Positions 14,941 through 62,452 of a stretch of 64,000 nucleotides of DNA are shown piece after piece. The DNA is taken from assembly GCF_026210795.1 (NCBI RefSeq), contig NC_089436.1, positions 4,774,001-4,838,000 on the forward strand. Direction: 5' to 3'. The position numbers and the translations under genes were made by a program. The notes beneath the pieces were generated by a model. It was not told where the DNA came from. It was given only the letters and a program-made list of their open reading frames with translations, and did no database searches. Numbering within the stretch: position 1 is the first letter of the stretch; the number at the start of each line of letters is the position of its first letter. This DNA is from Rhizophagus irregularis (lineage: Eukaryota; Glomeromycota; Glomeromycetes; Glomerales; Glomeraceae).

Positions 14941-15236
14941 TTTGAATTTATTTCATATTTTAAAAATAAACTGTCTATGCAGTATTATGTATTATTGATC
15001 AGTCGTCCAGTTCGCATTTTTGATCGATGAATCACCCAGCTCTGATATAGGTGTAATTCCTATATTGATCAAAATATTTAAATAATATTAAAATAAAGTC
15101 AATATACTTACAAATCTTGGTTTTCCATTCTTCAGAAGCCCACCCACAATACAAACTAAATACAATCAGCTATTGAAATAAGTATAACAAATTTTACATT
15201 ATTAATTTTTAATTTATGTATTAGAAATGGGTTTAT

Positions 15237-15476
15237 ATACTTATTATTTGATAATTTATAATAAAAAAGATTTATTTAAATTACAAACTAAGAAATTTGT
15301 AAAATATTTACTACTCTAGTCCTAGTGTTTAAATAATTCCAAGAAGAGAATACTTATATTTAATATTTGATAAAATATAAAAAAAGGAATTATTTAAATT
15401 ACAAACTAAGAATCTTTAAAATATTTTACTACTCTAGCCTTAGTGTTTAAATAAATCTAAAAAGAATAAAGTAAAG
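15237..15476. repeat. Two tandem copies of a ~125-bp AT-rich repeat
   Basis: Two direct copies contain ATTTATTTAAATTACAAACTAAGAA or a close variant, and CTACTCTAG-CTTAGTGTTTAAATAA. They lie just downstream of the kinase gene and are non-coding. Confidence 0.6.
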
Positions 15477-15635: not shown

Positions 15636-17806
15636 TTATATACACTTTACATACCTAATTATACATTCATTCAAGTCTTCGCTTACTAGCATTTCACTCA
15701 CTTGTACACTAGTTTGTGAATTTTTACTTTCAAGAATTTCATTCAATTGTTTACTAGTAAAATTAAGTAAGCGACTTGTACAATAAGCTTGTGGGTGAGA
15801 TTCAGTAACAAGATTGTTATGCCCAATTGGTGCATTTATAAATTCCATAATATTGCATTTTAATTCTTCACTAATGTCTTCAATTTTATTACTATAAGGA
15901 AGAGAAATCCATTCATTAATAATTTTTGAAGCTTCCTTAGAAGATGGCCTTTTTAATGGATCTTCATCTCAACATTTTTTCATCAAATCAACATAGCATT
16001 GTGGAGTATTTTCAATAATTTCAGGACGTTCACCTCCACAAATACTTAAACTAAGTTGAATATCATGTGCTCTATTATTAAATGGTGGTATTCCAGATGT
16101 AAATTCCCACATAATCATAGAAAAACTATATATATCACTAGCTGGAATATAAGGTTTGCCTCTTAATACTTCAGGTGCCATAAATGGTACAACACCATAA
16201 ATATTATGTTCTTCCAATAATGATTTTACAGGTTGACATAATCCTAAATCACTAATAAAAATTTTACTCTCATCATGATTTAAAATATTGCCATCATGAA
16301 AATCATGATGAATAAGATTTTGATTATGTATATCTTGAAGTCCAGAAATAATTTCATACAACATGCATAATTTTTGATCCCAACCACTTTCAACTATTTT
16401 TATTAAGTTTCCTCTTAAATCACCTTTGTTTGCATAATCCATTACCGCCATATATTTCAAGGTATCTGGATTTTTTGTAAATCCATAAAAATAAATAATG
16501 TTATATGAACCCAAACAACTTTCATGATATTTCCACTATAAAAAATAATAATATGTTAATATAAGTAAATAATAATTTAAATTAAAAAAATAATATACTT
16601 CATTTAAAAATTCATTTAAATTTTCATTTAAATTATTATGACATTTAAGAATTACTTCTCTATCTCTATTTTCATATGACCAAATAGCTTTGTGTATAGT
16701 ACCAAATCCTCCTTTATTAAGATATTCAACATTTTTAAATTTATAATAAGGAATCCATTTTAACCTTTTTTCAAGAATAAATTTATCTAAGATTTTGTTT
16801 CCACTTTTTCCAAAACTATAAATTTAAATAATTAAATTATGTAAAAGTTTATAATAAAATTTACACTAAATTTAAGATTAAAATTATCACTTACTCTAAA
16901 ATTTAAATAGGAATTTAAGGTCTTAGTTTTTGTATAAATATATATAATAATAAGCAATATTTCATAACTTACCAACTAAAGTAATAGAAATTTTAAAATA
17001 AAAGAATACAGTTAGCAAATAAATATTATATAAATATACAACAATAGAAATAAAAAATAACTTACAAGCTATATTATTTAAATAATTTTTTGAATAAAGA
17101 ATTTGGTTAGTTTAAATTATATGTAAATATTATAACAATAAGTAATAATAGAATTTAATAAATAACGTACCATCTATAAAATAATTTTTTAAATAAAGAA
17201 ATTTAGTTAGCTTAAATTGTATGACAATAGAAATATAGACATCATATAACTTACACCCTAAATTATTATTAATTTTTAATTAGTTAAATATAAATATAAT
17301 AGAAAGATATTCACTACAAATTGAATATATTACTTACAATCTATTTATTTAAATTAAGAATATAATTAGTTAAATTATATTAAAATATTAATAAATAAGT
17401 ATAATATTAAATATAACATTCTAAGTATTATAACTTACCAGCTGTAATATAATTAATTAGTTATTTAAACAAAGAATTTAGTTATTTGAATATTATGTAA
17501 AATAAATAGTAAAAAAACTAAAAATTTAAATAACTGATAACTTACAAACTATAGTATTTATTAATCATTAAATAAATTATTAAGTTACATAGAATATAAT
17601 GAAAATAATAATTAATTTCATTATCTAGTATTATTTAATTTTATTTAATTGTAAGAAAACCTATTAACTTACGGGCTATATAATTTTTATATAATATAGT
17701 TAGTTTATATTTGCAAAATTGTTTAAAAAGTTTGATGGGATAATTCTAATTTTATATTATATATTTATGCTGTATTATTACCTTTATGATCCATTACTTG
17801 ATTCAT
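15636..17806 (-). CDS. Protein kinase-like gene (TKL type) with microexon chain; one nonsense codon
   Basis: Twelve exons are proposed: 17,806-17,782 (ATG), eight of 3 nt, one of 1 nt, 16,815-16,599 and 16,535-15,636. Joined, they make one 389-codon frame. Kinase landmarks are the glycine loop KGGFGTIHKA (residues 51-60), Lys74 in VILKC, LIHHDFHDGNIL with Asp167 (HHD in place of HRD), ISDLGLC with Asp185, FMAPEVLRG and SDIYSFSMIMWEF. The style matches the expanded tyrosine-kinase-like kinases of Rhizophagus, which are soluble signalling proteins. A TGA at 15,971-15,969 (codon 278) stands where this subdomain normally has Trp (KKC-stop-DEDPLKRP); the frame then continues 110 codons to TAA at 15,636. 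It may be a recent pseudogene or a truncated kinase lacking the end of the C-lobe. The upstream ATG choice is tentative, since CCAATTAG just before it could be another splice acceptor. Confidence 0.7.
16895..17675 (-). other. Chain of eight 3-nt and one 1-nt candidate microexons
   Basis: On the minus strand, a 3' splice site (TATAG, TTTAG or ACAG) is followed after exactly 3 nt by a 5' splice site (GTAAGT or GTACGTT) at 17,675-17,673 (CCC), 17,548-17,546 (TTT), 17,441-17,439 (CTG), 17,340-17,338 (ATT), 17,257-17,255 (GGT), 17,173-17,171 (ATG), 17,068-17,066 (CTT) and 16,975-16,973 (TTG). At 16,895 a single A sits between TTTTAG and GTAAGTG. The introns would be 77-124 nt. Adding all nine to the first exon (phase 1) gives codons for ALSDWYAFD and reaches the kinase exon in the only frame that is open there; skipping the 1-nt unit would run into a stop. 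Many of the introns share CTAAC followed by ATTCTTT-like text, as expected of a branch site. Confidence 0.6.
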
Positions 17807-62294: not shown

Positions 62295-62452
62295 GGCGGG
62301 GCGTCCTTAACGTACAGTAGGGGTGTATGATATTAACGTACGAACTGGCCTGAGTTTGGGAGTTATGCACTTGCACGTGATAGCGTTAACGTTAATTCCA
62401 GTCAGTTCGTACGTTAATATCGTACATCCTCACTGTACATTAAGGAACCCCC
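62295..62452. mobile_element. hAT-type MITE, 8-bp target duplication
   Basis: The two arms share CCTTAACGTACAGT/CCTTAATGTACAGT and GATATTAACGTACGAACTG, covering nearly all of the 158 bp. TGATATAG is duplicated (62,287-62,294 and 62,453-62,460). The duplicated locus at 15,040-15,050 keeps the single, empty site CTCTGATATAGGTG. The element sits about 95 bp upstream of the minus-strand membrane gene. Confidence 0.9.

Follow-up and report, generated by a model that had tools for sequence, protein, structure and literature searches.

Can a gene be read through a long series of exons of one codon each? This question is raised by a protein kinase gene of Rhizophagus irregularis, located on contig NC_089436.1 (RefSeq assembly GCF_026210795.1) within a stretch of 64,000 nucleotides, positions 4,774,001 to 4,838,000, which was analysed as a whole and is here called the window. 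Coordinates of the gene are those of the window. The preliminary description of the locus had proposed serial segments of three bases, and one of a single base, each enclosed between splice sites. Reading and parsing of the minus strand found all of them in place: eight units of the type AG-NNN-GTAAGT and one unit AG-A-GTAAGT lead from a short exon 1 to the kinase exon, as follows.

17782 to 17806, minus strand: exon 1, ATGAATCAAGTAATGGATCATAAAG, phase 1 at its 3' end, followed by GTAATA
17673 to 17675, minus strand: microexon 1, CCC, 3 nt, sites of YAG/GTAAGT type parsed
17546 to 17548, minus strand: microexon 2, TTT, 3 nt, sites of YAG/GTAAGT type parsed
17439 to 17441, minus strand: microexon 3, CTG, 3 nt, sites of YAG/GTAAGT type parsed
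17338 to 17340, minus strand: microexon 4, ATT, 3 nt, sites of YAG/GTAAGT type parsed
17255 to 17257, minus strand: microexon 5, GGT, 3 nt, sites of YAG/GTAAGT type parsed
17171 to 17173, minus strand: microexon 6, ATG, 3 nt, 5' splice site GTACGT
17066 to 17068, minus strand: microexon 7, CTT, 3 nt; kinase arrays end most often in CTT-TTG
16973 to 16975, minus strand: microexon 8, TTG, 3 nt, sites of YAG/GTAAGT type parsed
16895, minus strand: microexon 9, A, 1 nt, changing phase 1 to phase 2
16599 to 16815, minus strand: kinase exon, N-lobe, FGKSGNKILDKFILEKRLKW..., at least 151 matches in the genome
15636 to 16535, minus strand: kinase exon 3, C-lobe and tail, in-frame TGA at 15971-15969, then open to TAA at 15638-15636

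The kinase gene of the window

At its 3' end exon 1 is in phase 1; the kinase exon, for its part, is open only if its first base completes a codon started upstream, that is, from phase 2, so the single A of microexon 9 fits the frame. The computed frames thus agreed with the phases proposed earlier and with the shift assigned to the 1-nt exon. The joined reading, MNQVMDHK-ALSDWYAFD-FGKSGNKILDKFI, contained no stop and spelled ALSDWYAFD as anticipated (frames computed, join made by hand). Elsewhere in the window only two 3-nt sites of the form YAG-NNN-GTA[AC]GT were found, at 62406 on the plus strand and at 62344 on the minus strand, both of them TTC.

A protein kinase domain lies 3' of the array, since the segment 15975-16535 matched Pfam PF00069 (1.5e-25) and PF07714 (1.8e-24). 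We take this kinase to belong to the TKL-like subgroup. The in-frame TGA of kinase exon 3 (context KKC*DEDPLKRPS) lies just past the Pfam match, and position 15636, where the preliminary description had ended the gene, is the next stop after it; a GTATGT near 15652 marks a possible earlier end of this exon. Given the TGA, the window copy may be decaying, a pseudogene, or a gene for a truncated kinase. That it is a dead relic, whose array would be uninformative on function, comes slightly short of an even chance. The position of the TGA is occupied by TGG in 13 paralogous loci (33 other loci were searched, and the stretch was not found in 20), which favours a relic, while the frame of the window array and its junction phases are intact and the class to which it belongs extends through the genome, so that at most the window copy would be decaying. 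A search of the genome with exon 1 and its splice site, allowing up to 3 mismatches, matched the window exon itself alone. Just 3' of the kinase gene, at 15236-15465, there is a repeat of about 1.9 copies of a 118-bp unit.

Occurrence of arrays in the genome

The genome (146.7 Mb in 32 contigs) was searched with a strict pair pattern of two 3-nt units 71-101 nt apart, and the reversed pattern served as control. Adjacent pairs of 3-nt units numbered 2,734 (1,428 + 1,306) against 58 (2 + 56) with the reversed pattern. By this count, and by the presence of only two other sites in the window, the window array is not a product of chance; it is among the smallest of the genome-wide class. Assembly error was rejected as the source of the arrays, because they occur on many contigs.

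For closer analysis we took the best 20 of the at least 151 matches to the kinase exon, one of them the window's own, together with 1.5 kb of sequence to either side (L011-L030), and arrays were present in all 20. A further set, L041-L051, was picked for known arrays, with L050 chosen for holding one of the two stop exceptions described below. In total 927 units in 57 gap-free segments were parsed from 31 loci treated as kinase-type, among which L051 was counted without an identified kinase exon. Parsed units per locus averaged 29.9 with a maximum of 66, many of the 31 loci being cut short. The parser accepted unit spacings of 55-140 and allowed relaxed 5' splice sites (one mismatch) only inside gaps; because it takes only near-consensus sites, units with poor 5' splice sites were missed and the arrays were split into the 57 segments. 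Three loci with other arrays (L052-L054) were left out of the stop, unit-number, GC and divergence counts, and these together with L044 were left out of the intron anatomy. The strict pattern was met by 363 of 870 parsed joins; extrapolated from this chosen sample, the total for the genome may be about 6,500 joins.

The length of the units was held at three. Among 310 GTAAGT sites in L001 and L010-L030, a count within which L001 and L010 overlap, the nearest upstream YAG was 3 nt away at 277 and 1 nt away at 17; the remainder had it at 0 nt (2 sites), at 7 nt (2 sites), or further off or not at all (12 sites). Genome-wide, 4-nt units beside 3-nt units were found at chance level (3 against 7 in the control), and 6-nt units beside 3-nt units 38 times against 4. 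By eye, some of the 38 matches resembled 3-nt units with a doubled AG. Other frame-keeping unit lengths may thus occur, though rarely.

Reading of the triplets

In the kinase frame, set by exon 1 and the kinase exon, each codon would draw its first base from the end of one triplet and its other two bases from the start of the next. A last base T before a triplet starting with AA or AG would then form a stop. T was the last base in 924 of the 2,734 genomic pairs, and was found before AA- or AG-starting triplets in only 2 of 400 cases (another base in 398), compared with 922 of 2,334 before all other triplets (Fisher P ~6e-75); these genome-wide counts pool all arrays and include the repeats within arrays. 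The parsed kinase-type arrays without L050 gave no T before AA, AG or GA triplets (0/125) against 240/730 before the others, and when pair types were counted once per gene, 0/90 against 202/583 (P 8e-16, likewise without L050). T was common before AT and AC triplets (65/246). A cause at the level of splicing was considered and rejected, as an intron of about 97 nt separates the two parts of the avoided combination, and T is often found before AT or AC.

The joins between neighbouring units contained no stop in 855 cases when L050 was left out, while joins skipping one unit gave 28 stops in 799 and joins skipping two gave 38 in 743, also without L050. With L050 included, the 31 loci had one stop in 870 neighbour joins, against a mean of 32.2 and a minimum of 20 in 2,000 within-segment permutations; skip-one joins had 28/813 (permutation mean 29.6), skip-two joins 38/756, and the other shifted phase 131/870. 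The first 20 loci behaved in the same way, with 0/414 at neighbour joins (within-gene permutation mean 9.9, minimum 3, 2,000 runs) and 62/414 in the other shifted phase. Triplets read by themselves were nearly stop-free too, with 2/462 in the first 20 loci and 4/927 in all 31, because TA-starting triplets are hardly used: the kinase-type loci have four, within L044 and L045. It is consequently the pairing test, and not a simple stop count, which singles out the reading frame.

Only two strict pairs in the genome had T before an AA or AG triplet, one in L050 (C4:4278500-4282700), which has TAA in its joined reading, and one at C13:347101-347204. Both pairs possibly lie in decaying genes. An apparent TAG in L017 (TTT followed by AGA) was discarded, since a further unit, ATG, whose 5' splice site GTGCGT is weaker, intervenes and removes it.

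From these counts the triplets look translated in joined form, and every microexon seems to be included, in order. Stops avoided at neighbour joins and random at skip joins point to selection acting on the fully joined product. This bears on combinatorial alternative splicing, by which varying subsets of triplets would give many peptide isoforms from each gene. With internal units almost always 3 nt long, the frame would be kept whichever subset is included, as such a scheme requires. We nevertheless consider it very unlikely, since stops at joins skipping one or two units occur at the random rate and the isoforms are not selected to be open. As far as selection is concerned, usable skip products of the kind made by cassette microexons were not found by this measure. 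The restriction of stop avoidance to neighbours argues against skipping as a functional mode and is compatible with skipping as noise.

Structure of introns and flanking exons

The parsed units had a complete 3' splice site, an exon and a 5' splice site in series. Introns between triplets were 68-128 nt long with a median of 97 nt. A plausible branch site, CTAAC, was present in 482 of 807 introns compared with 14 of 855 shuffled ones (slightly narrower stretch), and stood 37-43 nt before the 3' splice site in at least 293 introns. The 5' splice site was GTAAGT in 777 of 911 units, a form which the parser favours; the ordinary kinase intron of the same genes, identified in 19 loci, had GTATGA in 18 of them. 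Triplets had a GC content of 38.9% and intron bodies of 9.1%. The entropies of exon positions 1 to 3 were 1.86, 1.36 and 1.99 bits, positions 1 and 3, unlike position 2, lying above all 50 intron columns compared (highest 1.64 bits).

A short ATG exon before the array, with no other coding exon in view, was seen in L011, L012, L017, L024, L027, L029 and L042, out of 16 loci inspected, and separately in L050. It ended in phase 1 in all eight (computed for six, by eye for L017 and L024), so that a transcript lacking the array altogether would have its kinase out of frame. In L014 the upstream exon is longer (EFEGSSTKEFEGS...) and has the same phase at its end. A short palindrome, CACTGGGGTGATGATTACCCCAGTG, is inserted in an array intron of L010 at 2412-2436 and may be a small mobile element.

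Repeated, AT-rich units with many near-identical flanks are also what one would expect of untranslated intronic satellite DNA, in which motifs resembling splice sites arose by chance and from which no triplets reach the mature RNA. This reading is highly unlikely when stops are avoided at neighbour joins only, GC-rich triplets stand between introns of 9% GC, the unit length is held at 3, and exon 1 and the kinase exon are out of phase without the extra 1 nt. The fixed length, the stop avoidance at neighbour joins and the GC-rich triplets in AT-rich introns extend the earlier reading of serial 3-nt exons beyond the window.

Predicted peptides

Where the array start was seen, it read AL[S/N/D/K][D/N]W or the remains of this, and the array usually ended with F, followed by [E/D]-FGKSGN and the kinase domain. 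The stretch between was variable, rich in R, D, F, Y, N and W, and from a few to about 60 residues long. The pair ATT-GGT, giving DW or NW in the peptide, was found near the array start in 16 parsed loci. The intron within this pair had a mean likeness of 77% between genes (120 pairs), compared with 72% for random array introns of different genes and 59% after shuffling; part of the agreement in the first triplets may thus stem from shared descent of the units, and it was not counted as proof of coding.

The preliminary description had placed a stretch FKNWTSGN..IDKFI in related Rhizophagus kinases and had suggested that the microexons contribute its conserved Phe. The stretch does occur in unsplit kinase exons of the same genome, where FKNWTSGN...DKFI had at least 150 matches (two were read). 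Aligned by eye, the Phe given by CTT-TTG and that of the unsplit exons are both five residues ahead of SGN, in keeping with the suggestion. A genome search for a retrocopy of the joined junction, with up to 2 mismatches, gave no matches. Judging from its variability and its position, our guess is that the variable peptide serves recognition or specificity.

Divergence of triplets and introns

Triplets diverge far more than the introns around them. In 1,068 pairs of units from the same gene whose flanks were less than 5% different (mean 1.8%), the triplets differed at 31% of bases. When all 47 of 47 flanking bases were identical (455 pairs from 18 genes), the triplet was the same in 246 pairs and differed at one base in 120, at two in 40 and at three in 49. 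Unit pairs are not independent, hence the comparison of flanks and triplets is given without a P value. Point mutation at a single rate fails to explain the gap, which could come from diversifying selection on the codons, from homogenisation of the introns, or from introns inserted between old codons.

The last of these possibilities leads to introners, which are repeated mobile introns, near-identical, found at many genome sites and scattered through ordinary exons. The arrays resemble them in having near-identical introns at many places in one genome, and the arrays may have arisen from an uninterrupted coding sequence into which introner-like introns were inserted behind each codon, the triplets being that old sequence. 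Different triplets in 209 of the 455 flank-identical pairs, 49 of them at all three positions, agree with this, as does the frequency of identical neighbours (119/870, 13.7%), only slightly above that in all same-gene pairs (10.6%); in addition, the peptide of an array at an AIG1 locus, described below, looks like ordinary protein. Why hundreds of units should be spaced by exactly 3 nt is left unexplained by insertion, and we know of no counterpart to this spacing among introners. The same triplet was found in 246 of the 455 flank-identical pairs, and blocks in L042 and L052 are repeated together with their triplets, both of which speak against it. On balance such insertion is unlikely; it concerns the origin of the arrays and is compatible with their stepwise splicing. 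At least some of the growth of the arrays would come from duplicated units and blocks, and with triplets so much more divergent than their introns the architecture would act as a store of exchangeable single codons.

Arrays in other genes

Arrays were not confined to genes of the window's kinase type. About 69 3-nt units with intron sequence unlike that of the kinase arrays were found at C1:1723.7-1731.4 kb (L055, L052 and L056; C1:1721500-1734500), upstream of a coiled-coil protein with a Pfam AIG1 GTPase match (PF04548, 3.4e-18). One frame of this array was open, MDERLWEELEESLKGLLPPTIPPPPPLPGRLPLG... / MDERLWEELEESLKGLLPPTIPPPPPLPGRLPLGTKIPSPPPLPGRLP..., and the other two had 3 and 6 stops. 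The open frame is in a different phase from that of the kinase arrays, and its peptide is proline-rich, with PPPPPLPGRLP. Nine of the 70 units in this parse were relaxed; one, a TTA that follows AAA by four bases, is certainly spurious, and a gap of 243 hides a unit. A 5-nt exon CATTA, seen by eye, might link the array to the GTPase exon. The joined peptide gave no match, in a search of uncertain sensitivity.

At C3:1574000-1578500 (L053), 31 3-nt units precede a gene of another kind, whose reading frame following the array had no Pfam match. Two of the three frames of this array were open, and by eye one of them fits the next exon. Its joined peptide matched its own exon and two related exons, but the aligned part lies downstream of the microexons and therefore does not bear on them. 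A further array, at C7:1813000-1818400 (L054, L057), lies downstream of another kinase gene.

Discussion

The sequence evidence makes it highly probable that the arrays are complete short introns separated by one-codon exons, removed stepwise with all units kept in order. Each intron would be removed singly by intron definition, one after another. At each step three nucleotides would fuse to the growing exon, which would then present the next GTAAGT, a process resembling recursive (ratchet) splicing in which three bases are left each time. The preliminary description had supposed that unusual splicing machinery is needed; this is not required, because stepwise removal of single introns would suffice. 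The predicted product is a kinase starting with AL[S/N/D/K][D/N]W, followed by a hypervariable stretch, usually F-[E/D]-FGKSGN, and the kinase domain.

Among known gene families, the schistosome MEG genes are a fast-evolving family with many successive small exons. The exons of these genes, as well as those of the aphid bicycle genes, are longer than one codon; in the arrays, by contrast, internal units almost without exception measure 3 nt, and the introns are mutually alike. The bicycle genes are described as having many successive small exons, almost all of one phase, with a relative of more than 100 microexons (PMC9168663). As in both families, to the extent of that description, the arrays string together many short exons, and their family is variable and expanded (31 loci). 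Isolated tiny exons of 1 or 3 nt are reported from Arabidopsis APC11 (PMC4674806), Fusarium CYP621A (PMC12940212) and Drosophila homothorax (PMC7392893), and these, as presented there, share with the arrays their position between complete introns. For the 1-nt exon of APC11 the authors propose intron definition with recursive, one-by-one removal (PMC4674806). The exons of APC11 and CYP621A, in these accounts, are isolated ones in ordinary genes, whereas here 8 to 66 one-codon exons follow each other between repeated introns. Small microexons of plants are flanked by introns with strong signals, as are ours, and these introns are seemingly removed successively, often the downstream one first (PMC8831610). 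About half of the plant microexons are multiples of 3 nt, and the adjacent pair exemplified in that account has 5 and 12 nt (PMC8831610).

Among the best matches of a search of the open-access literature there was nothing on exons of 3 nt in series or on microexons of arbuscular mycorrhizal fungi, although this does not prove absence. We know of no kind of gene that combines one-codon exons, repeated introns and hypervariable triplets, and for this reason we rate the array genes as a new class; alternatively, they may be an extreme form of microexon gene. Several thousand one-codon exons, constitutive, in order, and with codons outpacing introns, would amount to a dedicated diversification system for the recognition segments of signalling proteins, a proposition for which the arguments are evenly balanced at present.

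Should this splicing be borne out, a constitutive exon can consist of a single codon even where dozens of such exons follow one another, and a fungus makes thousands of them accurately. The minimum size of a constitutive exon and its handling by the spliceosome become directly testable, and the arrays would lend themselves naturally to the study of stepwise splicing. Recombination between introns could change the protein residue by residue with the frame intact, and in a large kinase family the variable part has then probably escaped gene prediction.

Recursive splicing is described as the use of adjacent 3' and 5' splice sites for stepwise removal, with the 5' splice site rebuilt at each step (PMC8605326). 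Ratchet points in that description leave no bases (PMC8605326), while the fungal arrays would leave three per step. The zero-nucleotide AG/GT junction characteristic of such points was present at 2 of the 310 GTAAGT sites, against 277 with 3 nt. Of these two AG/GTAAGT junctions, the one in L021 lies downstream of the array; the other lies within the array of L022 and could be a true ratchet point.
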